Source of the DNA: Komagataeibacter melaceti
GTDB lineage: Bacteria; Pseudomonadota; Alphaproteobacteria; Acetobacterales; Acetobacteraceae
Assembly (NCBI RefSeq): GCF_003403295.1
Contig: NZ_QUWV01000049.1
Coordinates: 1-61,736 of the forward strand
Reading direction: 5' to 3'
Length of the DNA stretch: 61,736 nt
In this document: in pieces, positions 46,183 through 59,965 of the stretch
How positions within the stretch are numbered: position 1 is the stretch's first letter
How the letters are laid out: each line of letters starts with the position of its first letter
The notes under the pieces: model-generated
Told to the model about the DNA's origin: nothing
The model's input: only the letters and a program-made list of their open reading frames with translations
The model's database searches: none
Made by a program: the position numbers and the translations under genes

Positions 46183-47496
46183 TTACAGGATAAAGCGGCT
46201 CAGATCACCCTTGCTGGCCAGTGGGGCGACCTTCTCGCGCACATCGGCCACATCAATGACCACGGCCTGCCCCGCACGGTCGGCGGCGGTGAAGGAGACC
46301 TCTTCCAGCAGGCGCTCCAGCACCGTGGCAAGACGCCGCGCACCGATATTCTCGACACGCTCATTGATGTCCGCCGCCAGTTCCGCCAGCGCGTCAATCG
46401 CATCATCGCTGAAGGACAGCGTGACCTTTTCCGTGCCCAGCAGTGCCACGTACTGCTGCAGCAGCGAATGTTCCGGCTCGGTCAGGATGCGGCGCAGGTC
46501 TTCCCGCGTCAGCGATGCCAGTTCCACACGGATCGGCAGGCGGCCCTGCAGTTCGGGCAGCAGGTCGGACGGCTTGGCGATATGGAACGCGCCGGATGCG
46601 ATGAACAGGATATGGTCCGTGCGCACGGGGCCGTATTTGGTGGAAACGGTCGTCCCCTCGATCAGCGGCAGCAGGTCGCGCTGCACCCCTTCACGCGATA
46701 CATCCCCACCCCGCGTGCCCCCTTCGGACGCGCGGGCGCAGACCTTGTCGATCTCATCAAGGAAGACAATGCCATGGTCCTGCGCATGGATGACGGCCTC
46801 GCGCGTCAGCGCATCGGTATCGAGCATCTTGTCCGCTTCCTGCCGGATCAGGGCGGCGCGGGCGGCGGCGACCGTCATGCGGCGCTGCTGCGGCATGCGG
46901 TTCATGAAGCCCTTCATCATGTCGGAAAAATTGATGACGGTACCCGGCGTCATGTTCGGCATGTCGGAAGGTGACGGGCCACCGGCCTCGGCAATCGAGA
47001 TCTCGACTTCCTTGTTCTCAAGCTCGCCCGCGCGGAGCATGCGCCGGAACTTGTTCTTCGTCTCGGCGGAAGCCCCCTCGCCCACCAGCGCGTCCAGCAG
47101 CAGGTTTTCGGCAGCCAGTTCGGCCTTGGCCTCCACATCCTTGCGGCGCAGGTCGCGCAGCATGTTGATCGAGACTTCCACCAGGTCGCGCACGATGCTT
47201 TCCACATCGCGGCCCACATATCCCACTTCGGTAAACTTGGTGGCCTCGACCTTCAGGAACGGGGCCTGCGCCAGCTTGGCCAGGCGGCGCGCAATCTCGG
47301 TCTTGCCGCAGCCGGTCGGCCCGATCATCAGGATGTTCTTGGGCACGACTTCTTCACGCATCGCATCGGGCAGTTGCGCGCGCCGCCAGCGGTTGCGCAG
47401 CGCGATGGCGACGGCACGCTTGGCGTCCGTCTGGCCGATGATGTAGCGGTCGAGTTCGGATACGATCTCACGCGGGGAATGATTGGGAATTTCCAT
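46183..47496 (-). CDS. hslU: HslU ATPase of HslUV protease
   Basis: 437-residue AAA+ unfoldase (ClpY) that feeds substrates to HslV. Walker [15 protein letters not shown], Walker [12 protein letters not shown], a large I domain in the middle (residues about 110-240), and sensor motifs [15 protein letters not shown] and [15 protein letters not shown]. The C terminus ends LSRFIL, the tail that docks into HslV. Overlaps the hslV stop by one base. Confidence 0.97.
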
Positions 47497-48089
47497 TACG
47501 CCGCTCCCTCCTGCGTGTCCGTGCCCAGTGTCTCCACAATGACGGAATGGTTGGTATAGACACAGATATCACCGGCGATTTTCATGGACCGGCGTGCGAT
47601 ATCCACCGCCCCGAGTCCCTCGATCCCCAGCAGCGCGCGCGCGGCGGACAGCGCGTAATTGCCGCCCGAGCCTATGGCGATGATGCCATCCTCCGGCTCC
47701 AGCACGTCACCATTGCCGGTCAGCGTAAAGGAACGCTCGGCATCCGCCACGGCCATCATGGCTTCCAGCCGCCGCAGATAGCGGTCGGTGCGCCAGTCCT
47801 TGGCCAGTTCGACACAGGCGCGTTCAAGCTGGTTGGGATAGCGTTCAAGCTTGTTTTCAAGCCGTTCCAGCAGGGTAAAGGCATCTGCCGTGGCCCCCGC
47901 GAAACCCGCCAGTATCTGCCCCGTGGGGCCGATCCGGCGCACCTTGCGCGCATTGCCCTTGATAACGGTGGCGCCCAGCGTCACCTGTCCATCGCCAGCC
48001 ATGGCCACCTGGCCTGCGCGCCGGACACACAGAATGGTCGTACCATGCCACCCGATCGGGTCATGGGAGGATGAATGATGATCTTGCAT
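47496..48089 (-). CDS. hslV: HslV peptidase of HslUV protease
   Basis: 197-residue threonine protease (ClpQ), a double hexamer with HslU. The catalytic Thr is predicted at Thr17 in [10 protein letters not shown], giving a 16-residue propeptide; DGQVTLG and [14 protein letters not shown] are conserved. I start at 48089 ([11 protein letters not shown]); ATG four or more codons upstream are possible but lie beyond the family's normal N terminus. Starts 64 bases after the sensor-kinase stop. Confidence 0.95.
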
Positions 48090-48142
48090 GGTGATAGAGA
48101 TAAAACCTTCTCCTGACAGCGCAAGGGGCATCCGCCCCATGC

Positions 48143-48160
48143 AGGCATGTCCTCATGCCT
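48143..48160. other. short hairpin at the end of the chemosensory operon
   Basis: AGGCATG and CATGCCT (48143-48149 and 48154-48160) with a 4-base loop span the stop codon of the hybrid kinase. No T run, so it is not a clear terminator; it may protect or slow the transcript between the operon and hslV. Confidence 0.4.
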
Positions 48161-50120
48161 CCTGCGCGGTACGGTTCATGATCCGGTCGATATGGGTGGC
48201 AAGGTCGGCGCGGGTGAAGGGTTTGTGCATGACATCGGCGCTGCCCGCGGGCAATGCGCCCGCATTGGCGTAGCCGGTCAGGTACAGCACGCGCAGGCCG
48301 GGGCGCAGGGCCTGCAGGCGATGCGCCGTCTCGAGTCCGCCCATGCCCGGCATCATGACATCCATGATCACGAGGTCGATCGGCCCCACGCCCTCCTCCA
48401 TGGCGCGCACGGCCTCGGCGCCGCTGGCATATTCACGCACGTCATGCCCGCGCGCACGCAGGAACCCTGCCGTTACCGCCCGCACCCCCGGTTCGTCATC
48501 CACCACCATCACGTGCAATACCCGGTCCGTCTCCCCCTCGCCCGCGACGGCAGGGCTGGTGGCAGCCGAAGTGTCATTTTCCACCGCACCGGCCTGCACG
48601 GGCAGGCACAGGTCAACCCGCGTACCCTCTCCCGGCTGGCTGCGCACCTGTACCTCGCCACCCACATGGCGGATGAAGCCATAGATCATGGACAGCCCCA
48701 GCCCCGTGCCACGGCCCACATCCTTAGTGGTGAAGAACGGCTCGAACACCCGCGCCAGCGTCTCGGGCGACATGCCAACGCCCTGATCTGTCACGGAAAC
48801 CATGACATACCTGCCGGGCACAAGGTTGGTGCCCGCCACGATTTCCTTCACCCGTTTCAGCCCGGTGGAAACCCGGATCACGCCGCCACCGGGCATGGCG
48901 TCCACCGCGTTGATGCACAGGTTGAGCACCGCCAGTTCAAGCTGGCCCGCATCCGTATTGACCGGCGGCAACATCCCGTCCGATGCGGCGGTATCCACCA
49001 CGATGGTACATGGCGCGCCACCATCCTTGCCCTGCCGGGACACAACCGTCTGGGCCAGCAGGTCCTTCATGCCGTGCAGCAGGGCATTCACATCCACCGG
49101 CTCAAGGCTCAGGTCACGCGGACGGCTGAAATTGAGCAGCCGCCGTGTCAATGACGCCCCGCGCTGGGCGGCGGCGGCGGCATTGTCCAGAAGCCGCGCC
49201 ATCGGTCCGTCTTCCGGTCCCATGTCGCGCACCAGTTCGAGCGACCCCAGCACGGCGGTCAGCAGGTTGTTGAAATCATGCGCGATCCCGCCCGCCAGCG
49301 TGCCCAGCGCCTGCATTTTCTCCGCCTGGCGCAGCCGGGCCGCCATTTCCTGCTGGCGCGTGACGTCGCGGTTGATCACGACGGAGCATGCCGTGCCATC
49401 CCCCAGCGCGCCCAGCACCACGCGCGTAATCTCACGCCACCGCCCCTGCGCGCCACCGCGTATGTGGGCGGGCAGTTCAAAAGTCTCCTCGTCCCGTCCC
49501 TCGGCCAGCAGGCGTTCCTGTGCTGCGCGGATGATGGGCAGGAGTTCGGCGTCGCACAGTTCCTCCTCCGTGCGGCCCAGACAGGCGGCGATGTCGCGGC
49601 CATAGAAATCGGCCGCCTGCTGGTTGATGCGGATGAACCGGCCCTGCGCGTCCTTGAACCCCAGCCCCGAGCGCAGGTTGTCCAGCAGCCCGTGCAGCAG
49701 CATGCGCTCGGTGCGCAGTTCACGTTCCAGCCGGTGGTAATCCGCCGCCTGCACGATCATGGCGCGCAGGGCGTCGGGGTCCCATGGCTTGTGGGAATAG
49801 AATGAAATCCGCCCCTGGTTCAGCGCCGCCGCCACCGCGCCGATATCGGCATAGCCCGTGAGCAGGATCGCCTGCGCGTCACAGGTCTCCCGCGCGCGCG
49901 CCAGCATGACATCTCCCCCCATCTCGGGCATGCGCTGGTCGGATACGATCACGTCCACATCATTGCGGGTGGACAGGATTTCCAGCGCCGCGATGGGCGA
50001 TGTGGTGGACAGGACGGTAAACGTATCTTCAAGCAGGTCCGTCAGAGCGACAAGGATTTCCGCCTCGTCATCCACCAGCAGCACAACGGGGCGCGGCTGT
50101 ACCGCAGGTTCGGTATTCAT
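48153..50120 (-). CDS. hybrid histidine kinase REC-PAS-HK-REC
   Basis: 655-residue soluble sensor kinase, last gene of the chemosensory operon. N-terminal receiver (about 10-125) with Asp61 in VSDQRMPEMGG; PAS domain (about 140-260, FKDAQGRFIRINQ-type); HisKA with His281 in GGIAHDFNN; HATPase with [26 protein letters not shown] and GTGLGLSM; C-terminal receiver with Asp587 in IMDVMMPGMGG. No membrane helix. Its ATG overlaps the upstream kinase's stop codon. The first receiver could accept phosphate from the operon's CheA (inference). Confidence 0.88.
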   Translation of the reverse strand: MNTEPAVQPRPVVLLVDDEAEILVALTDLLEDTFTVLSTTSPIAALEILSTRNDVDVIVSDQRMPEMGGDVMLARARETCDAQAILLTGYADIGAVAAALNQGRISFYSHKPWDPDALRAMIVQAADYHRLERELRTERMLLHGLLDNLRSGLGFKDAQGRFIRINQQAADFYGRDIAACLGRTEEELCDAELLPIIRAAQERLLAEGRDEETFELPAHIRGGAQGRWREITRVVLGALGDGTACSVVINRDVTRQQEMAARLRQAEKMQALGTLAGGIAHDFNNLLTAVLGSLELVRDMGPEDGPMARLLDNAAAAAQRGASLTRRLLNFSRPRDLSLEPVDVNALLHGMKDLLAQTVVSRQGKDGGAPCTIVVDTAASDGMLPPVNTDAGQLELAVLNLCINAVDAMPGGGVIRVSTGLKRVKEIVAGTNLVPGRYVMVSVTDQGVGMSPETLARVFEPFFTTKDVGRGTGLGLSMIYGFIRHVGGEVQVRSQPGEGTRVDLCLPVQAGAVENDTSAATSPAVAGEGETDRVLHVMVVDDEPGVRAVTAGFLRARGHDVREYASGAEAVRAMEEGVGPIDLVIMDVMMPGMGGLETAHRLQALRPGLRVLYLTGYANAGALPAGSADVMHKPFTRADLATHIDRIMNRTAQEA

Positions 50121-52033
50121 TGGTCTGTAACTCCCTGCCCCTGCGCGGGACGCGGTGGTTCATGCGGTGCCCGGCCGGCCGGGTCGGACGGTGGCGGCCC
50201 CGGCGGCAGGCTCTCACCGCTCGGGCCGGGGTTCCACGGTACGGAAATGGTGAAGCGCGCGCCACCCTGCGGCGCCCGCCCTACCGAAAGGCTGCCATGA
50301 TGCGCCTGCACCACACTGTAGGCGATGGCCAGCCCCAGCCCGGTTCCCGCACCCACCGGCTTGGTTGTAAAGAACGGCTCGAAAATACGTTCCTGCACAT
50401 CGGGCGCGATGCCGGGGCCGCTGTCGGTAATGACGAAGACATAACTGTCCTGCCCGCCTTCTTTGTGCGCAAGGAAGGTATGGATCTCGATTTCCCCCTC
50501 CGCGATGCCGCTGCGGGCGGACATGTCCTCGGGCTGGGCGGCCAGGATGGCATCGGCGGCGTTGCTGATGATGTTCATGATGACCTGATTGAGCAGCGCC
50601 GCCTGACAGTACAGCCGCTCCGGCGCTTCATAACGCCGCCGGACCACGATGCCGCTGCCCAGCTTCTGGGTCAGGAGCGCCATGACCGTTTCCAGCGCTT
50701 CGGGCACGTCGATCAGCTGGAACAGCCCTTCATCCAGCCGGGAGAATTTGCGCAGGTTCAGCACAAGGTTCTGGATGCGCCGCAGCCCCATGTTCATGGA
50801 ACCCACGCGGTCACGGCACTTGTTCAGTATGGCCTCGCGCTCCGGCTGGCCCGCATCGGTGCAGGTGGCCTCCATGTCCTTCAGCCGTTCCAGCCCGCGC
50901 GCCACCGTATCCTTGTGCGCAAGGATGAAGGCGAGCGGGTTGTTGATCTCATGCGCGATCCCGGCCACCAGTTCACCCAAGGACGCCATCTTGGCGGTCT
51001 GCACCAGCTTGCCCTGTGTCTCGATCAGTTTGCGGTTGGCGTCGGCCAGTTCGCGGTTGGCCTGTTCCAGCGCCTCCGCCAGCGATGCCTTGGAGGCAAT
51101 GGCTGCCGCCTGCGCGCGTGCGCTCCGGACCGCGACCTCACGCGCCTGGCGCTCCATCTCGATCCGGCGCACGTCATCCTGCAGCAGCTTGCGCCGCACC
51201 AGCACGCGGATGCGCAGCGCAAGCGCCGCAGGCCCCACATCGCGTGAGACGAGATCATCTATCCCCGCCTCGAACACGCGGGCCGAAAACGCGCGCGCAT
51301 CCGGCCGGGGGCCGCCATCCACCCCGAGTATGCGCGGCGGCACGTTGCCCGAGAGCAGGTCTTCCTGCCGCCATCCATCCAGCCTGCGGCAGACTTCCAG
51401 CCCGTCGAATTCATGGCATGCCAGATCAATCACCACGCAGTCGGGCATGTGGTCGGGGTCATGCAGCAGGGAGGGCTCCAGCCGCTCGGGGTCATGGCAG
51501 AGCGTGACGATATGCCCGTCACGCCGCAACTGCCCGATCAGTTCCGGCACCGCCTGCTGCTGTGCGGGTTCGGGGGCGATGACCATGATGCGTGCGCGGC
51601 GGAAGACACGTTCGGGCCGCAGGCTGGGCGCATGGGCCGCGTGCTCGCGCAAAAGCGCGCGGATGCGGAAGACGATCAGTGCGGGGTCCGAGGATTTGGG
51701 GATGTAGGCATCCGCCCCGCTCTCCAGCCCTTCACGCTCCAGACCCGGCTCGATCCCCTCCGTCAGGATCAGGACGGGGATGGTGCGCGTCACCGCGTTC
51801 ATGCGCAACTGGCGGGCAAGCTGGCCGCCATTCATGCCCGGCAGGTGATAGTCCGCGATCACCAGCCCCGGCAGGCGCTCATCCAGCGTATCAAGCGCTT
51901 CCTCGCCACTGGCCACGCGATGGACGTGAAAGCCGTGCCCTTCCAGCATGCGGCGGATGCGCAGCGCCTGCGTGTCCGAATCCTCGACCAGCAGCAGCGT
52001 GTCCGGGTCATCCTTTCCATTGGTCAGGGACAT
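50117..52033 (-). CDS. REC-REC-histidine kinase
   Basis: About 638 residues. A canonical receiver (about 10-130) has Asp61 in [11 protein letters not shown]; a second, divergent receiver-like domain (about 148-280) keeps an Asp (203) in [12 protein letters not shown] but has lost several conserved positions. A coiled coil (about 285-350) leads to a kinase with His361 in [13 protein letters not shown] and HATPase motifs FEPFFTTKP and GTGLGLAI. Tandem receivers in front of an effector recall PleD, with the diguanylate cyclase replaced by a kinase. Start set at 52033, 10 bases after the cheB stop. Soluble, no membrane helix. Confidence 0.85.
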
Positions 52034-52043
52034 GGGGAGGTCA

Positions 52044-53135
52044 TCATCCTTCCTGAAGTCTGTCGGCCGGTGTCTGGCCGCCTGCCAGAAGCCGGAGGAT
52101 ATGCGGGCCGATTTCATGCACCGGCAGGCTTATGCACGCGGCCCCTGCCTGCTCGGCGGCGCCGGGCATGCCGTGGATGACCGAGGTACTGCGGTCTTCC
52201 GCAATCGTGTAGCCACCGCGTGCGCGGATGCGGCCCAGCCCCTCCACGCCGTCTTCCCCCATGCCGGTCAGCAGCACGCCGAGGCCATCGGCCCCGAATA
52301 CGCGGGCAACGGAGGAAAACAGCACATCGGCCGAAGGGCGCTGCCCCTGCACCTGCGCTTCATCATGCAGCACGACCTCGCCGCGCGTGCCCACCGTCAT
52401 GTGCCGGTTGCCCGGGGCCACCAGCACCCGCCCGCGCGCCAGCGGCGTTCCGTGCCGCGCCAGCATGACCGGCATGGGCACCTGCTGGTCCAGCCACTGG
52501 GCGAAACCTTCCATGAAAGGTTCGCCCATATGCTGCACCAGCACCACCGGCAGCGCGAAATCGGCCGGCAGGTCACCCAGCACGCGCGCAAAGGCGGTCG
52601 GCCCGCCGGTGGAGGCGGCAAGGGCAAGGATACGGGGGTGGATATCAAGCGGGCGGGTCCAGACATCTGGCCGGGGCGATGGTTCGGCCTGCACCATGCG
52701 GCGGCGGATGACCGGCACCTGGCTCATGATATAGAGCTGCGTCGCAATGCCCTGCGCCGTGGCCCCCGTGCCCCCGCTTGAGAGGCCCTGCGGCTTCTCG
52801 ACAACCGCCAGCGCGCCCGAGCGCAGCGCGTTCATGGAAACCTTGGTGGCCTCATTCCCCACCGTATCGCTGACAATCACGATGGGCGTGGGAAAATGCG
52901 CCATGATCTGCCGCGTGGCTTCCAGCCCGTCCATGCCGGGCAGGCAGATATCCATGGAGATCACATCGGGGCGCAGGTGCGGGACAAGGCGCAGGGCTTC
53001 TTCCGCCGTTTCCACGGCCTGAAGCAGTTCAAGGCGCGGGTCGCTGGCCACCACGCGCATGAGCAGGTGGCGCAGCACCGCCGAATCTTCCACGATCAGC
53101 ACGCGGCGCGGGGGCTGGGGCGTGAGCGTGCTCAC
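52044..53135 (-). CDS. cheB: chemosensory methylesterase CheB
   Basis: 363-residue response regulator that removes methyl groups from receptor glutamates, adapting the signalling. Receiver with Asp62 in ISMDICLPGMDG; methylesterase with Ser175 (AASTGGP), His202 (VQHMGE) and Asp295 (GMGEDG), so the catalytic triad is intact. Its start is inside the end of cheA (4-base overlap). It corresponds in position to WspF. Confidence 0.95.
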   Translation of the reverse strand: MSTLTPQPPRRVLIVEDSAVLRHLLMRVVASDPRLELLQAVETAEEALRLVPHLRPDVISMDICLPGMDGLEATRQIMAHFPTPIVIVSDTVGNEATKVSMNALRSGALAVVEKPQGLSSGGTGATAQGIATQLYIMSQVPVIRRRMVQAEPSPRPDVWTRPLDIHPRILALAASTGGPTAFARVLGDLPADFALPVVLVQHMGEPFMEGFAQWLDQQVPMPVMLARHGTPLARGRVLVAPGNRHMTVGTRGEVVLHDEAQVQGQRPSADVLFSSVARVFGADGLGVLLTGMGEDGVEGLGRIRARGGYTIAEDRSTSVIHGMPGAAEQAGAACISLPVHEIGPHILRLLAGGQTPADRLQEG

Positions 53136-55237
53136 AAAAGTCCCCTTATGGTGTCGATCAGTTCGCCCTGATCAAATTTCTGCTTGGTCAGGTAGGCACG
53201 CGCGCCCCCTTCCATGCCCCGGCGCACGTCCTCGCCCTCGTCACGCGATGTCATGAGCACCACCGGAATATCCGCCAGATGCGGATCGGCCCGCATGGCC
53301 GCCAGCAGGGCGAAGCCATCCATGCGCGGCATTTCCACATCCGTCACCACCACATCGACATGCCGCGTGGACTGCTGGAGCTGCGCCAGCGCCTCCTCCC
53401 CATCCACCGCAAGGCAGACATCATAACCATGGGACTGGAGGATCGTTTTCTGCAATGTCCGGGTCGTGATCGAGTCATCCACCACCATGACCAGCGGCGC
53501 ATGGCGCACCGGGGTCACGCGGGCGGCCTCGTCCACATCGCTGAAGCGCACCGTCCCGCCATTGCCGCGCAGCCGCCAGCGCGCGAACAGCCGGTCGGGG
53601 CTGAGGACAAAGACCGGCTGGTCCTCCCGCGGCCACGCGATGCCGGGGACCAGTTCACTATCAAGCCCCACCGCCGTGGCATCCGACACCAGCAGGGTGC
53701 GCACGTCCACCATGCGCTCGACCGCAAAGCCGCAGCGCACGCCATCAACCTCCATCACCGCGACGCTGACCGCACCGTCGCGCACCGGCAGGGGCGCGTC
53801 CTCATCACCCACAAAGGCCATGAGCGGGACCAGCGGCACCAGTTCTTCCGCCTGCTGCGTGGCCTCGGGCGCAGGCCGGACCCCATCGGGCGGGTGCGGC
53901 ACCACGCCAAAGGGCAGGCCATTGAGCATGCGGATGTCCTCGCGCCGGATGCGCAGCAGGTGGCGGATGACCCGCCCCGGCAGGCCCAGCGTCTGGCCCG
54001 CGTTTTCCACCAGCAGCACCGTGCGCTGCCGCTGCGAGACCGGCACGGTCAGCGTGACCGTGGTGCCGGCGGGCTGGCGCTGTTCCATGCGCACGGTGCC
54101 GTGCAGCGCGCGCGCCGCCTCGGCCACGACCGACAGGCCCACCCCGCGCCCGGCCAGGCTGTCGGCCTGCCCGCGGGTGGAAAACCCCGGTTCGAACACA
54201 CGCGCCAGCAACTGCCGCGCATCTAGCGGCGCATCGGCATGGACCAGCCCCTGCCCCGCCGCGCGCGCGGCAATGGCGCGCAGGTCCGGCCCGCGCCCGT
54301 CATCACTGACCGCGACCTGAAGCCGCACCCCGGTCAGGGTGACGGAAATGGTGATGTTGAGGCGTTCCGACTTGCCCGCCTTCAGCCGCTGGGCGCGTGT
54401 CTCGTACCCATGGACGATGGCATTACGCACAAGGTGGATGACCGGGTCGCGCAGCGCCTGCATCACGCGCCGTTCGGTCTGCACGCCCATGCCGTGCATA
54501 TGCACGTCCACCCCGGCTTCCGGCCCGCCATGCTCACGCGCGATGCGCCGCGCCATGGGGGCAAGCGAGCCGAACACGCTTTCCGCCGGGACAAGGGTGA
54601 CGGCATGCACTTCCTCCCCCAGCCGCAGGAGCGCGCGGTCGATCTGGCCCGCCATGAGTTCACGCTCACGCCCCACCGCCATGAGCCTGCGTGTCATCCT
54701 GCCGAATTCGGCCACCGGGTCGGCGCGCATGCGTTCGGGCGCGTGCATGACGGCGCGTGAATCCGCCAGCAGGTCCATCACCCGCGCCCACAGCCGCTCG
54801 TGCCGGTCCGCCACCGACATGAGGTCATGCACGGCCGAGGCCAGCGCATCGAGCCGTGCGACAGGCACCTGCACATAGGCCGCGTTATCGGCCGGTGCGG
54901 GCGCTTCGGGGCGTGTGTCCTCCTCCGGCGGCGCCGATGTCATGATCAGGTCGATCTCATCAAGCGTGTCGGTAATGGCCCTGAGGTCATCCGCATCCGG
55001 CAGGGCGCTGGCGGCCAGCAGGGCGGACAGGCGGTTTTCCAGCGTGTGCGCCACGGTTTCGACTGCGGGCAGTTCCACCGCGCGGGCCGCGCCCTTGAGC
55101 GAATGGACACGGCGGAATATTTCCGCCACGTCGCGCCGGTCCGCGCAGCCGGACGCCACCACGGCCCTGATGGCGCGCAGGTGGTCGCGATATTCCGCGT
55201 CAAATACCGCCAGCAGTTCGTCCCGAAGGCTTTCCAC
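53132..55237 (-). CDS. cheA: chemosensory kinase CheA fused to receiver
   Basis: 701-residue CheA-REC. Hpt domain with His45 in RRVHSLKGAAR; a linker (about 110-130); dimer and kinase part with the N box VRNAIVHGYE and G boxes VSDDGRGPD and GRGVGLSVV; CheW-like domain (RTVLLVENAGQTLGLPG...); C-terminal receiver with Asp633 in VVTDVEMPRMDG. WspE has the same Hpt-HATPase-CheW-REC order. No P2 domain is obvious, as in WspE. Fused receivers usually act as a phosphate sink or relay. Confidence 0.93.
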   Translation of the reverse strand: MESLRDELLAVFDAEYRDHLRAIRAVVASGCADRRDVAEIFRRVHSLKGAARAVELPAVETVAHTLENRLSALLAASALPDADDLRAITDTLDEIDLIMTSAPPEEDTRPEAPAPADNAAYVQVPVARLDALASAVHDLMSVADRHERLWARVMDLLADSRAVMHAPERMRADPVAEFGRMTRRLMAVGRERELMAGQIDRALLRLGEEVHAVTLVPAESVFGSLAPMARRIAREHGGPEAGVDVHMHGMGVQTERRVMQALRDPVIHLVRNAIVHGYETRAQRLKAGKSERLNITISVTLTGVRLQVAVSDDGRGPDLRAIAARAAGQGLVHADAPLDARQLLARVFEPGFSTRGQADSLAGRGVGLSVVAEAARALHGTVRMEQRQPAGTTVTLTVPVSQRQRTVLLVENAGQTLGLPGRVIRHLLRIRREDIRMLNGLPFGVVPHPPDGVRPAPEATQQAEELVPLVPLMAFVGDEDAPLPVRDGAVSVAVMEVDGVRCGFAVERMVDVRTLLVSDATAVGLDSELVPGIAWPREDQPVFVLSPDRLFARWRLRGNGGTVRFSDVDEAARVTPVRHAPLVMVVDDSITTRTLQKTILQSHGYDVCLAVDGEEALAQLQQSTRHVDVVVTDVEMPRMDGFALLAAMRADPHLADIPVVLMTSRDEGEDVRRGMEGGARAYLTKQKFDQGELIDTIRGLL

Positions 55238-55247
55238 GGCCTTGCCG

Positions 55248-56930
55248 TCAGGTCCGGTAACGTGCGGAGATGGTCAGCAACTGCTTGGACAGCTTGCCAA
55301 GGTTGCTGGCCGAGACCTCCAGGTTACGGGTGCCGGCCGATGTCTGCTGGCTGGCCTGGCGGATGCTCTGCAGCGCCGTCATAACCTGTTCGATCCCGAT
55401 CTGCTGCTGGTTGGTCGAAGCCACGATCTGCTGGAAGGCATGCACCCCTTCCTCGATGCCGCCGGTCATGCGCTCGATGGTGCGGTAGGCGATGTCGGTC
55501 CGTTCCCGACCGGCGGAAACGCGCTTGACCGCCTCCTCCGTCAGCATGACGGAGGTGTTGATGCCGCGCTGGATGTCACCCAGTATGGCGCGGACATTCT
55601 GCGTCGCGTCACGCGACTGGTCGGCCAGGATCTTCATCTCGGCCGCCACCACGGCAAAGGAGCGGCCATGCTCGCCCGCCGCAGCCGCCTCGATCGCGGC
55701 GTTGAGCGCGAGCAGGTGCGAACGCTCCGACAGGTCATTGACAGTGGCGATGATCTCGCTGATCGCCTCGGTCCGTTCGGACAGCGCCACGATGTTCGAG
55801 GCCACGGCCTCGGCCCCGTCATGGGTATGGGCCATGGCGCGCGCGGTTTCCTCCACCGCCTCAAGCCCGCTGGCGGAGCTGTGGACGATCACCTCCGCCG
55901 AGGAAATCACCTCCCGCGCGCGCTTGCTGATCTGCGCGCCCGAATGGGTGATCTCGTCCACCGTGGCCGCCGTTTCCTGCACGGCGGCGAACTGTTCTTC
56001 CACGCTTGCGGCCTGCTGCTGCGTGGAGGCGCGGATCTCGGCCACCGCCGTATCAAGGTTCTGCGTCACCTCGCCACTCTGCCGCGCGATTTCACGCAGG
56101 CCGTCGATCATGCGGTTCAGGCCCGCGGCAAGACGGGCGACCTCGTCACGTTCCTCGCCCATGCCGCCCACCTTGGCGCGCGTGGCCAGGTCACCCTGCC
56201 CCACGCGCTCCATCACGTGCATGATGGAGGAAATCGGCTCCATAATGGAGCGCCGTGTCCAGAACGTGACGATCAGCGCCACGACAACCGCCAGCCCCAT
56301 GCCGATGGCAAGCGAGCGGCGGCTGTAGTCATAGGATGCGGCCCCCTGCGTTTCCGCCACCTGCACGCCGTGGTCCAGCAGGGAGGCCGCCCGGCTGACC
56401 AGCAGGTCGATGGACTGTTCACGGCTGTCTATGCGTGACGCCTGTTCGCGCACGCTGGCGTCATTGGCCGCGCGCATGGCCTGGAACAACATGCCCGCCG
56501 CACGCGTATCCATCTGGAACTGGCCGGAAATATCGCGCAACTGCGCAGCGACGGTATTGAACATGTCGCGCTGGTCATCGCTGCGCGCCAGGCGTCCGGC
56601 TTCCTCCGCGCGGGACAGCACGCCCGCCAGCAGGCCCTCGGCCTCACGCGCCTTTTCATCCCATGCGGCAATGGCGTCTTCCAGCACGGCGGGCGCGGTT
56701 TCGAAATCATGCGCGTAGTAATGCGCAAGGATGGCGAGGCGGCGCGCCACCAGGTCGTTCTCGTTGGCGCGGATATGCGTCAGTTCGCGATAGACCGACA
56801 GATCGCGCGTGACGATGAGGGTCATTTCATCACGCACCTCACGGATCTGCCCCAGTGCGTAGATCCCCAGCGAGACCAGCAGCAGGACACCGACCATGAA
56901 GCCGAACAGCAGGCGATTGGCGATTGTCAC
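55248..56930 (-). CDS. methyl-accepting chemotaxis protein
   Basis: 560-residue receptor. First membrane helix near 6-27, a helical periplasmic domain of about 175 residues without PAS or Cache features (four-helix-bundle style), second helix about 206-224, HAMP to about 280, then the long coiled-coil signalling domain. The hairpin tip reads HLLALNAAIEAAAAGEHGRSFAVVAAEMKILADQS, close to the highly conserved tip with minor changes (AAAAGEHGRS). No C-terminal pentapeptide for CheR tethering. Equivalent to WspA in gene position. Confidence 0.93.
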   Translation of the reverse strand: MTIANRLLFGFMVGVLLLVSLGIYALGQIREVRDEMTLIVTRDLSVYRELTHIRANENDLVARRLAILAHYYAHDFETAPAVLEDAIAAWDEKAREAEGLLAGVLSRAEEAGRLARSDDQRDMFNTVAAQLRDISGQFQMDTRAAGMLFQAMRAANDASVREQASRIDSREQSIDLLVSRAASLLDHGVQVAETQGAASYDYSRRSLAIGMGLAVVVALIVTFWTRRSIMEPISSIMHVMERVGQGDLATRAKVGGMGEERDEVARLAAGLNRMIDGLREIARQSGEVTQNLDTAVAEIRASTQQQAASVEEQFAAVQETAATVDEITHSGAQISKRAREVISSAEVIVHSSASGLEAVEETARAMAHTHDGAEAVASNIVALSERTEAISEIIATVNDLSERSHLLALNAAIEAAAAGEHGRSFAVVAAEMKILADQSRDATQNVRAILGDIQRGINTSVMLTEEAVKRVSAGRERTDIAYRTIERMTGGIEEGVHAFQQIVASTNQQQIGIEQVMTALQSIRQASQQTSAGTRNLEVSASNLGKLSKQLLTISARYRT

Positions 56931-56936
56931 GGGATT

Positions 56937-57476
56937 TCACACTCCGACATAACGGGAAGAGAACAGGCGCGCGGGGTCGATAACGGTCAGGCTGCGCCCA
57001 TCGGGCAGGCGCGCCTGTGGAAAGCCCGAGGGCGTGAGCGGGGTGGGCGTGCCCGCGATTTCCACCGTGCCGGTGGCCGCCGTGGCCAGCAGGGCGATCC
57101 GCCCCAGCGGGATGCTGGAGACCGAACGCAGCAGCAGCATCACCCCCGGCCTGTCCAGCCGCGCGCCCCCCAGCAGTACCGACAGGTCGAACACCGTATA
57201 CAGGTCACCCTGATAGCCATGCACGCCCTGCACGCCGGGCGGGCAGTCGGGCCTGCGCGGCATGTCGCTCCAGACCGGGTCGGTCACGCGCAGCACGGCA
57301 TGCAGGTCCACCCCGCAGCACTGCCCGGCAAGGTCGAGCATGACCAGCGGGCGGCGGGTCGTGGCCTGCGTATCATCCTGCCCGCGTGCGGCCATGATGC
57401 GCGCGCGTTCGCGAAGCACGCGCCGTGCAAAGGCGTCACTGCTGCCCGTGGGGCGTTCTATGCCACCGGCCGTCAT
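56937..57476 (-). CDS. cheW: CheW-like coupling protein 2
   Basis: 179 residues with an Arg-rich N-terminal helix (about 40 residues) then a CheW fold: PLVMLDLAGQCCGVDLHAVLRVTD, QGVHGYQGDLYTVFDLSVLLGG. Links receptor to CheA. It overlaps the cheR stop and precedes the receptor gene by 6 bases. Two CheW proteins flanking a CheR occur in Wsp operons (WspB and WspD). Confidence 0.88.
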   Translation of the reverse strand: MTAGGIERPTGSSDAFARRVLRERARIMAARGQDDTQATTRRPLVMLDLAGQCCGVDLHAVLRVTDPVWSDMPRRPDCPPGVQGVHGYQGDLYTVFDLSVLLGGARLDRPGVMLLLRSVSSIPLGRIALLATAATGTVEIAGTPTPLTPSGFPQARLPDGRSLTVIDPARLFSSRYVGV

Positions 57477-58855
57477 GATGAAATCCGTGCAGCCCGGATG
57501 GCGGGCGCATCGCCAATCTGGCGTACAAGCCGCAGCAGGCCGCCTGCCGTCAGCCCGTCACCATCAGGCAGGACCATGTCCGGCGGGCAGCGGCGGACAA
57601 GATCGACCATCTGCTGGCGCAGCCTGCGCGCCTGCGCCCATCCGCCACTTTCCTCTAGCATGCGCGACAGGTAGCAGCGCGCCATGACATGGTCACGGCA
57701 CAGGTAGATGACGCGGCGAAACGACTCCTCGGCCTGCAGGAGCGACCCCTCGCCCCACGCCAGCACGGCAAACAGGAAATGGATGCGGGCATCGACCGGG
57801 TGGCGGGCAAGGTAGTCGCGGCACATCTCCATACCACGCCGTACATGGCCGCTATCCGCCACGCGGCGGATCTCGGTGGCGATGGTTGTGCTGTCCACCA
57901 CCGGGGCGGGTGGCAGGGCCGGAACGGGGGCGCGGCGTGGCGCGGCGGGCGGCCCCGCCAGCACGGGCTGCCGGGCCACATCCTGCCGGGGGCCGGAGCG
58001 GGGGGCGCAAAAGGCCAGCGTGCCGGGCAGGCGCACGGTGTCAAGAAACGGGCTGAAATCGGATACCGGCTCCGAATGCCCCTGCAGCAGCCAGCCTTCG
58101 GGGGCAAGGCGGTCCGCCATGGCGCGCACCAGACCTACCGCCTGCGCCTGCGCGAAATAGATCAGCACGTTGCGGCACAGGATCAGGTCGAACGGACCGG
58201 CGGGACCGCCATCGGGGCGCAGCAGGTCAAGGATGTTGCCGTAGCTGAAGCTGACCATGCGGCGGTAGCGTTCGTGCAGCCGCCATGCGCGCCCGCCCGC
58301 CGGGACAAACCATTCCTGCCGCTGCCCGGGCGGAATGTCGCGCAGGGTCCACGCACTGAATTCCGCCCGCCGCGCCTGTTCAAGGGCGCGCGTGCTGATA
58401 TCGGTGCCCAGGATTTCGATATGCCAGTCCGCCACCGTCATGCCTGCCTCCTCCAGCAGGCGTGTCAGCACGATGGCGATGGAATAGGGTTCGGCCCCGT
58501 TGGAGCAGCCGACACTCCATACCCGCAGATGCCGCGTCGCCTCCGCCCGGCGGATCAGCCGTGGCAGGATGGTATGCTCCAGCGCCTGGAACTGCTCGGC
58601 ATAGCGGAAGAAGAAAGTCTCACCGATGGTGATGGCCGATTCCAGTTCACGCCATTCGGCATCACCCCGCACATCATCGGACAGCAGGGCGAGATAGTCG
58701 TGGCAGGTCAGGCAGCCATGCAGGCGCATGCGCGCACCCACCACCTGCTGGAGCAGGTCGGTCTTGTCCACATAGTAATGCAGGCCCGTGCGCATGGTCA
58801 CGGCATTGACCAGCCGCCGGAAACCGGCGGGCGGAAAGGCCCCCGGCCCGGTCAT
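57473..58855 (-). CDS. cheR: CheR methyltransferase with C-terminal TPR-like region
   Basis: 460 residues. CheR methyltransferase (about 1-280): ITIGETFFFRYAEQF, SAM motif VGCSNGAEPYSIAIVL, and FDLILCRNVLIYF. A Pro/Ala linker follows (about 300-325), then helix pairs resembling TPRs (RRGMEMCRDYLARHPVDARIHFLFAVLAWGEG, etc.). WspC and FrzF have the same CheR-TPR layout. Methylates glutamates of the operon's receptor. Overlaps both neighbours by 4 bases. Confidence 0.9.
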   Translation of the reverse strand: MTGPGAFPPAGFRRLVNAVTMRTGLHYYVDKTDLLQQVVGARMRLHGCLTCHDYLALLSDDVRGDAEWRELESAITIGETFFFRYAEQFQALEHTILPRLIRRAEATRHLRVWSVGCSNGAEPYSIAIVLTRLLEEAGMTVADWHIEILGTDISTRALEQARRAEFSAWTLRDIPPGQRQEWFVPAGGRAWRLHERYRRMVSFSYGNILDLLRPDGGPAGPFDLILCRNVLIYFAQAQAVGLVRAMADRLAPEGWLLQGHSEPVSDFSPFLDTVRLPGTLAFCAPRSGPRQDVARQPVLAGPPAAPRRAPVPALPPAPVVDSTTIATEIRRVADSGHVRRGMEMCRDYLARHPVDARIHFLFAVLAWGEGSLLQAEESFRRVIYLCRDHVMARCYLSRMLEESGGWAQARRLRQQMVDLVRRCPPDMVLPDGDGLTAGGLLRLVRQIGDAPAIRAARISS

Positions 58856-59385
58856 GGACGGTCCTCCCCCTCACCCACGTTTTCCGCCCACAGGGCCGCG
58901 CGGGCGCGGGTGCGCGCCGCAAGGGCGTCGAGCCGCAGGCGCTCGCCATGTGTCAGGATGTCGGCCATGCGCAACATGAAGGCAATGCTGCCATCCTTCA
59001 GTTCCAGTTCCTGCCCCGCACACTCCACCTCCGGCCCTGCGCCGTCAACCGTGCCGGGCCGCAATACGCCCTGATGCGTAACCTCCAGCGCGCCATCGAC
59101 CAGCAGCGCCACATGCCCGCCCCCATCCAGATTGCACAGGAGCAGCGGGCGATAGAGCAGGTCCACCGGCTGGGTGACCGCGTGCAGCCGCTCCCCCAGC
59201 AGCACCCCCAGGTCGAGCACCACCACCATGGCCCCGCCCAGCCTGAACCAGCCCGACACATGCGGCAGCGTCACCGCCAGTGGCAGCAGTTCGGGCACCG
59301 GCATGCATTCGCGCACGACCTGCCCCGCGGGCAAGCCATAAAGCCGCGCGCCCACGCGAAAGATCATGACCGGCGCGATTTCCAT
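58852..59385 (-). CDS. cheW: CheW-like coupling protein 1
   Basis: 177 residues, first gene of the chemosensory operon. CheW-fold strands: VMIFRVGARLYGLPAG, VSGWFRLGGAMVVVLDLGVLLGE and PLLLCNLDGGGHVALLVDGALEV. A C-terminal helix of about 40 residues (LRLDALAARTRARAALWAE) extends the fold. I start at 59385 because GGAGG lies 7 bases upstream; the frame continues to 59466 without a good site. Confidence 0.85.
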   Translation of the reverse strand: MEIAPVMIFRVGARLYGLPAGQVVRECMPVPELLPLAVTLPHVSGWFRLGGAMVVVLDLGVLLGERLHAVTQPVDLLYRPLLLCNLDGGGHVALLVDGALEVTHQGVLRPGTVDGAGPEVECAGQELELKDGSIAFMLRMADILTHGERLRLDALAARTRARAALWAENVGEGEDRP

Positions 59386-59566
59386 CCGCGCGCCTCCGGC
59401 CGCGTTACCGCCAGATGATGTGGCGTGATCCATGGGGTTGCACAACCTGCTGTTTACCATATGCACAAGGCAGAAGTTTGCATTTAATACAAGCCATCGC
59501 TACCTCGGGCAGGAATGCGTTTCCTTCAATTCGGGGAAGCTGCCCCACGGCCGGAGTCTTGTTTCA

Positions 59567-59965
59567 ATGGACAGTCCCATTTCCAACCCCTCGCAGGAAC
59601 GCCCGCCCGCCACGGCAGGCCGTGGCATCAGCGTGGCCCGCATCCTGCGGGTGACGGTATGGTCGGTTTTCTATTTCCTGTTCTATCTGGTCCAGCAGAT
59701 CTCCGAACTTGTTGCCCCGCTTGTCCTGATCCTTGGCATCGGCTGGAGCCTGCTGCCCCATATCATGGGCATCGCCACCAATGCCGCCGGCAGCGACCCG
59801 CAGACGCGTGACGTGATCGCAAAGGTGGCCCATTCCATTCCCGACCACCTTGAGGTGGGCACGCACCTGCTCACCCCCTCCGCACTGGTGTTTGACGGGC
59901 TTGCGCTCATGGCCGCGGCGGCGCTGTGCGCCACGCTGTCCACCATCGCCGCGCGCACCATGTAA
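59567..59965 (+). CDS. small membrane protein before ftsE
   Basis: About 132 residues; GGAG lies 11 bases before ATG 59567. One long hydrophobic segment near residues 28-58 (FYFLFYLVQQISELVAPLVLILGIGW), a helical loop, and a second near the C terminus (FDGLALMAAAALCATLSTIA). The 25-base gap to ftsE makes co-transcription likely. No domain known to me. Divergent from the chemosensory operon with about 180 bases between. Confidence 0.65.
   Translation: MDSPISNPSQERPPATAGRGISVARILRVTVWSVFYFLFYLVQQISELVAPLVLILGIGWSLLPHIMGIATNAAGSDPQTRDVIAKVAHSIPDHLEVGTHLLTPSALVFDGLALMAAAALCATLSTIAARTM

Follow-up and report, generated by a model that had tools for sequence, protein, structure and literature searches.

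The 61,736-nucleotide contig NZ_QUWV01000049.1 of the acetic acid bacterium Komagataeibacter melaceti (assembly GCF_003403295.1, genome G000; 3.49 Mb in 248 contigs), the whole of which we call the window, carries an operon that we consider fairly likely to encode a non-motility chemosensory pathway, of the alternative cellular function (ACF) kind. We place this pathway in an alphaproteobacterial lineage of its own and liken it to Che3 of R. centenum, with CheA gating two soluble kinases through their N-terminal receivers. Open reading frames (ORFs) and Pfam domains define eight minus-strand genes, head to tail at positions 48153–59385, in the order CheW, CheR with a TPR-like tail, CheW, a methyl-accepting receptor (MCP), a CheA-REC hybrid, CheB, a REC-REC-histidine kinase (HK1) and a REC-PAS-histidine kinase-REC protein (HK2). 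The seven junctions, measured between likely starts, are -4, -4, 6, 10, -4, 10 and -4 bases. No GGDEF or EAL domain was matched anywhere in the window, and a REC profile search found no stand-alone receiver there. The sequence-only reading that preceded this work had described these eight genes in this order, with gaps of 10 bases or less and no GGDEF or EAL protein, and the ORFs, Pfam domains and junctions bear this out. The proposal starts from what we observed directly, namely gene order, domains, conserved sites, lineage and retention without flagella.

Conserved sites and retention of the two kinases

We infer every phosphotransfer step, and the sign of control, in the following scheme. 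CheA would be controlled by the membrane receptor, with two CheWs as the couplers and with CheR and CheB doing the tuning. Part of the phosphate on CheA would drain into CheA's own C-terminal receiver; the rest would go to the intact N-terminal receivers of HK1 and HK2, and the kinases would be switched by receiver phosphorylation rather than by a periplasmic sensor. Receiver 2 of HK1 would be a structural, PleD-like adaptor, and in HK2 the PAS domain would take in a second signal, from the cytoplasm. As output, the pair would present its kinase/phosphatase state: HK2 may pass phosphate to its own C-terminal receiver, which would correspond to CheY3, a stand-alone protein in R. centenum, and/or HK1 and HK2 may act on an unlinked response regulator.

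Signaling residues were counted in 41 chosen loci (L033, L037, L039, L040, L049, L050, L052, L062, L063, L066 and L071 were omitted). H45 of CheA is present in 40 of the 41, with one gap, and D633 in all. A CheB domain was found in 40 loci, the exception being L069; CheB could be aligned in 27, where the catalytic residues are invariably present (27/27), and in 13 more it is present but masked by ORF choice. Receiver 1 of HK1 is intact in 40/41 (exception L054). The catalytic histidine is kept in 41/41 HK1 and 41/41 HK2 sequences, and the N-box Asn is invariant in both. The first receiver of HK2 retains Asp and Lys in every locus, plus Thr or Ser, and its C-terminal receiver retains Asp and Lys in all 36 loci that have it. 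Five relatives (L067, L068, L070, L072 and L077) lack this terminal receiver. In two of them, L067 and L077, the gene after HK2 is for a stand-alone receiver, whose best match among the six window receivers is the HK2 terminal one (27–32% identity), with the CheA receiver second. The CheA of L070 (genome G053) gave two C-terminal receiver matches in a profile scan, maybe one receiver split in two.

HK1 matches HisKA and HATPase_c, with no PAS domain at E 0.001 in Pfam, and neither kinase has a transmembrane-like segment. The earlier REC-REC-HK assignment holds as to two receivers, but the second is degenerate: Pfam scores only one, and the other is seen by a REC profile, in many orthologues, and in a structure model. 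In receiver 2 both acids are present in 6/41 loci, Thr/Ser in 0/41, Lys in at most 6/41 and the Asp in 32/41. The AlphaFold model of HK1 has two receiver-like folds in series; because its confidence is middling (mean predicted local distance difference test score 68.7, predicted template-modeling score 0.35), only its domain folds were used. In Foldseek its first six matches are chains of the receiver-kinase LvrB (best 7.5e-22), followed by PleD structures (5.6e-16, about 290 columns), and residues 41–318 of HK1 also match PleD by sequence (5.6e-17). The HK1 ORF is open to 52117 with a likely ATG at 52033; residues are numbered from 52117. The closest solved structure to HK2 is the CckA kinase core (5idj, 9.3e-45).

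We gathered relatives at several depths. A family search of 150 genomes gave a CheA match at 1e-30 in 45, of which 20 (the source genome included) reach at least 40% identity, and named genomes yielded 29 loci when scanned, most of them from Komagataeibacter, Novacetimonas and Gluconacetobacter, Alsobacter soli being among the outliers. CheA matched at 1e-40 in 8 of 385 genomes class-wide, and a phylum-wide search matched 108 of 398, with neighborhoods fetched for 20. Identity to the window CheA is 95% in G060, of the same genus, and 90% in K. saccharivorans. This gene-order search, in Acetobacteraceae and beyond, found both kinases in 45 of the 46 distinct clade loci with enough sequence, the window counted among them, so the arrangement is conserved beyond chance. 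The 46 derive from 49 clade loci left after removal of duplicates (L062, L063 and L070, duplicating L051, L050 and L052) by setting aside L040, L049 and L066, which end too soon; L058 and L059 (no CheA core) and L055 and L079 (outside the clade) were not counted. A GGDEF gene lies in the fetched stretch of only one of the 49, L144, where it is upstream of the first cheW and has no receiver.

One relative carries a much reduced operon. L069 (6810–14451, genome G048), which has the window's flanks ftsEX and hslVU, encodes only MCP, CheA, HK1 and HK2, and a profile search of the locus found no CheW, CheR or CheB; the kinases thus outlast the adaptation genes, and the locus is a natural test of which operon parts are essential. 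In the other few loci without CheR and CheW, the contig begins late. L069 also bears on the idea, which we judge unlikely, that CheB and CheA's own receiver are the sole targets of CheA and that HK1 and HK2 form a co-encoded but separate two-component pathway. Co-encoding is indeed no proof of phosphotransfer, and HK2 has a PAS domain of its own. However, both kinases lack a transmembrane-like segment and begin with conserved receivers that need a donor, and in L069 both kinases persist with MCP and CheA at a locus in which a search for CheB found none.

Retention without flagella and candidate outputs

Flagellin was matched in 15 of the 20 carriers and in none of the remaining five. In three of these five, G135 (a Komagataeibacter), G073 and G142, the genome has one MCP and one Pfam Hpt, all in the operon; a fourth, G130, has one MCP, that of the operon, and three Hpt matches, one of them below cut-off. 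A flagellar role was accordingly rejected as a requirement for retention, the operon being kept in genomes without flagellin. The source genome itself has 2 Hpt domains, 4 MCPs and 30 receiver matches (one below cut-off), and encodes a second, flagellar-type CheA set and three further MCPs.

The inventories of the flagellin-less members suggest a stronger version of the proposal, which we regard as possible but doubtful: the operon would be a self-contained, closed circuit without an effector of its own, in which one CheA gates a soluble kinase pair and which integrates a membrane signal (through the MCP) with a cytoplasmic one, rather than a switch for synthesis of cyclic di-GMP (c-di-GMP). 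The cytoplasmic signal would enter through the PAS domain or as c-di-GMP bound at the CckA-like kinase cores. Since the Hpt of CheA is the sole Pfam Hpt in three flagellin-less members, the terminal receiver of HK2 could there return phosphate only to CheA or act by protein contact.

We considered where a signal from the kinases might go. None of the 11 GGDEF proteins of the source genome carries a Pfam receiver, which, as far as Pfam detects, excludes direct signaling to a diguanylate cyclase by way of a receiver; a diguanylate cyclase encoded elsewhere and commanded through its own receiver was rejected on this ground. The earlier expectation that receiver-bearing kinases follow the chemosensory genes in place of direct c-di-GMP synthesis, with no need of flagella, is supported. 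An indirect link from the operon to c-di-GMP is compatible with the Pfam data. Binding of c-di-GMP by the kinase cores of HK1 and HK2 is a weak lead, because the mapping of residues depends on an assumed CckA numbering. A second CckA residue, presumably the one singled out in structure work, is not kept in HK1 or HK2. By that mapping, the Tyr equivalent to CckA Y514, the one residue named in the accessible text of PMC5189948, is kept in 34/41 HK2 and 40/41 HK1 sequences.

The CckA likeness raises the prospect that HK2, as a CckA-like kinase-receiver hybrid, feeds the CtrA homologue of the genome. We find this quite unlikely. The best NCBIfam match of HK2 is CckA (7.7e-100), although far below cut-off (335 of 1000 bits), its best PDB match is the CckA core, and a CtrA-like regulator is present in the genome (313 of 350 bits). 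Yet another hybrid kinase model, PRK13557, scores HK2 almost equally (324 bits), and a search for a ChpT-type phosphotransferase (PF10090) gave no match in the source genome, the control being matched in Caulobacter only. The ChpT route to CtrA was rejected for want of that match.

Komagataeibacter is known for making bacterial cellulose. BcsB co-occurs with the operon when genomes are counted (14/20 carriers vs 37/130 others, p = 0.0006), less clearly when genera are (7/12 vs 28/90, p = 0.10); shared ancestry can produce such a pattern, and a cellulose link is unproven.

A CheA lineage separate from that of WspR-type operons

The Wsp gene names and gene order are used here in their familiar sense. 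We built a CheA tree of 50 chosen rows with a midpoint root, in which L069 forms a long branch, six rows have an unusual composition and the WspE clade is recognized by its operons, not by named WspE sequences. All 31 rows labeled as having HK1 and HK2, together with L066 and L071, fall on one side of a branch (support 100/99). WspR-type operons form a separate CheA clade of nine rows (100/100), seven with a REC-GGDEF gene, the others being L151 and L160. Outside both clades lie L055, a Rhodospirillales operon with a REC-REC-HisKA kinase; L148 (4235–5431 noted), with REC-PAS-HK-REC plus REC-EAL; L153 (1148–3301 noted), with REC-PAS-HK and a REC-nucleotide cyclase-Ser/Thr protein kinase; L155, with a REC-GAF-PAS-GGDEF-EAL-REC protein; L149, with a single receiver at the contig end; L152 and L161, with REC-REC-GGDEF; and L098, the flagellar-type CheA of the source genome. 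In L148 and L153, output modules differ around one shared core. The output label changes twice on the tree; a GGDEF output is thus not confined to a single CheA lineage. The Acetobacteraceae family also holds a WspR-type operon in G138 (L079, 4578–5849), with CheA, CheB and then REC-GGDEF, whose CheA groups with the WspE clade. Finally, L160 (2565–3698, genome G822) carries a 377-residue REC-HK gene directly 5' of the MCP, fitting the Burkholderia H-system as described, with its CheA inside the WspE clade; kinase outputs of chemosensory operons therefore most likely arose more than once.

Gene order and receptor point the same way. The order MCP-CheW-CheR-CheW-CheA-CheB-WspR is found in L154 and L156, in L158 with one small extra ORF, and in L150 and L157 with one CheW slot unrecognized; the MCP comes first in WspR-type operons, whereas in the window it stands fourth. 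The window receptor has transmembrane-like segments at residues 7–25 and 207–225, a periplasmic stretch, HAMP and a signaling hairpin of 140 + 140 residues, for which we assume the label 40H given to receptors with 280-residue hairpins. Its two arms are 23% and 19% identical to those of a WspA-type receptor (L154), but 52–74% and 57–78% to those of the lineage beyond acetic acid bacteria (L031–L057); L055, at 52% and 58%, is close to the bottom of the lineage's range. For the periplasmic part, identity is 90–92% in Komagataeibacter, 53–69% in neighboring genera and 17–38% beyond, indicating that the input varies while the signaling part is kept. All PDB matches of the MCP cover HAMP or the signaling part, none the periplasmic part alone.

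The sequence-only reading had matched the first six genes to Wsp and taken the operon as Wsp-like, with the diguanylate cyclase replaced. The match stands for gene content but fails for order, and the replacement itself is contradicted: CheA lies outside the WspR-type clade, order and receptor differ, and a WspR-type operon exists separately in the family. We rejected this candidate on the CheA tree, gene order and receptor identity. A true Wsp system with WspR replaced by kinases, as in Burkholderia WspH, and feeding c-di-GMP indirectly, is therefore highly improbable, despite the shared gene content, the CheA-REC hybrid and the length of the receptor C-terminal arm, and despite Burkholderia showing that such a replacement occurs (as available from PMC8552884). 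The CheA of L160, with its REC-HK 5' of the MCP, falls inside the WspE clade and ours outside it, the gene order differs, and HK1 and HK2 resemble the WspH-like protein of L160 only as any receiver or kinase would (best 29%, 132 residues, 9e-12). Least credible is a role in taxis or motility, the kinases being auxiliaries, to which the flagellin of most carriers and the source genome's own flagellar-type CheA set and further MCPs would be congenial, but five carriers lack flagellin, the operon MCP is the sole MCP in G135, G073, G142 and G130, and the REC profile finds no stand-alone receiver in the window.

Coordinates of the eight genes are collected in Table 1. The earlier label CheR-TPR needs qualifying: the tail is TPR-like but weakly scored by Pfam (TPR_16, E 0.028, below cut-off). 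TPR is likewise below the Pfam cut-off in a WspC-type protein (TPR_2, 8e-5), and a profile built from the window CheR tail matches CheR tails of WspR-type operons as well. Downstream on the same strand lie hslV/hslU (46183–48140), and upstream, divergently, ftsE/ftsX (recognized by the FtsE and FtsX models at scores under the cut-offs). The claim that no flagellar gene is nearby holds for these immediate neighbors, the Pfam scan having covered the operon and its immediate neighbors within the window. hslV-hslU directly follows the operon in Komagataeibacter, Novacetimonas and Gluconacetobacter loci. A small ORF (59432–59965) between operon and ftsE matched no Pfam family when scanned from 59531, and an ORF of similar size sits at the same place in many Komagataeibacter loci. 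A promoter and terminator scan gave matches at or below chance expectation.

Table 1. Genes of the chemosensory operon, in order of transcription
Product	Position	Strand	Evidence and remarks
CheW-like coupling protein 1	58852..59385	-	PF01584, 5.9e-11; ORF open to 59466 (GTG), likely ATG 59385
CheR methyltransferase with C-terminal TPR-like region	57473..58855	-	PF01739, 1.3e-46
CheW-like coupling protein 2	56937..57476	-	PF01584, 1.2e-6
Methyl-accepting receptor (MCP)	55248..56930	-	PF00015, PF00672, partial PF12729
CheA hybrid: Hpt (H45), ATPase core, CheW-like domain, C-terminal receiver (D633)	53132..55237	-	Pfam
CheB: receiver and methylesterase (S175, H202, D295)	52044..53135	-	PF01339, 7e-57
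HK1: receiver 1 (D89), degenerate receiver 2, coiled-coil-like helix, histidine kinase (H389)	50117..52033	-	Pfam
HK2: receiver (D61), PAS_4, histidine kinase (H281), C-terminal receiver (D587)	48153..50120	-	Pfam

Comparison with known chemosensory systems

The closest described system is Che3 of R. centenum, which controls cyst formation and, in the portion of the literature available, shares a hybrid CheA-REC, an MCP, two CheWs, CheR, CheB, eight genes and a non-motility output. According to the accessible text of PMC3868531, the receiver of CheA3 is a phosphate sink and CheA3 also passes phosphate to CheS3, at the first receiver of this REC-REC(inactive)-kinase, which then stops phosphorylating CheY3; the wiring from CheA-REC through receiver 1 of this kinase to a single receiver was shown biochemically. 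HK1 has a CheS3-like receiver pair, the second predicted to be inactive. Its receiver 2 Asp is mostly kept (32/41) with other pocket residues lost, whereas the Asp is replaced in CheS3 as described. Che3 has a single downstream kinase, of HWE type with PAS, and a stand-alone CheY3. In the window there are two kinases, both HisKA-type, PAS occurs on HK2, and the terminal receiver is part of HK2 itself.

Several observations weigh against a Che3-like pathway. The analogy may be convergent, because HK1 is HisKA-type without a Pfam PAS, unlike CheS3, and the comparison is with a published description, CheA3 being absent from our CheA tree. L071 (1–8770, genome G021) has cheA and cheB, but the 7.7 kb fetched downstream contain neither of the kinases. 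L068, L070 and L072, which lack the HK2 terminal receiver, encode no stand-alone receiver in the stretches searched, so that receiver is not essential everywhere. G016 is a carrier without flagellin yet has five MCPs and six Hpt matches, and the closed-circuit picture thus does not fit every member. In L071 the same 7.7 kb contained no GGDEF either, and cheB is followed by a gene that reads like a GTPase.

Burkholderia WspH resembles the window in being a chemosensory operon with a receiver-kinase output in place of GGDEF, and in the accessible part of PMC8552884 the wrinkly phenotype of this H-system is reported to be apparently c-di-GMP independent. It differs in having, as available there, one short REC-HK 5' of the MCP where the window has two kinases 3' of cheB; going by L160, a representative chosen by architecture, its CheA also belongs to the WspE clade. 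The Wsp R-system shares the six-gene core, CheA-REC, two CheWs and a receptor C-terminal arm of 140 residues (143 in L158), but places the MCP first and REC-GGDEF after cheB and belongs to a separate CheA clade.

The gene set itself is already in print. The introduction of PMC4686702, in its available text, lists the same eight gene kinds in K. xylinus E25 (H845_2129–2136) and notes H845_2135, called a putative MCP, for a possible ethylene response; we read H845_2135 as CheR by its place in the gene set, and the ethylene response of that operon is speculation in that source. The available text reports no mutant or biochemistry of the E25 operon. Among the papers listed in literature searches, mostly outside subscription journals, there was no mutant or biochemical study of the operon, and a term search of the main text of two transcriptome papers returned no mention of chemotaxis or histidine kinases.

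Kinase outputs are a known kind, since, among the response regulators examined in CheR-TPR clusters, about 40% include a kinase module (accessible text of PMC3447774). ACF pathways are recognized there, in the text available, by multidomain response regulators and no flagellar output, and the window fits by its domains and its retention without flagellin. The operon is thus real, well conserved and ordinary in kind, its kind of output being known already from Che3 and Burkholderia WspH; what is unusual is two serially encoded kinases and no effector. It should not be annotated as Wsp, nor should raised c-di-GMP be assumed. In three sampled acetic acid bacteria (G135, G073 and G142) no other chemoreceptor pathway was found, and these are therefore a clean place to seek a non-motility chemosensory output. 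More generally, the operon could be used to test whether the CheA-to-kinase wiring of R. centenum is a wider alphaproteobacterial design.

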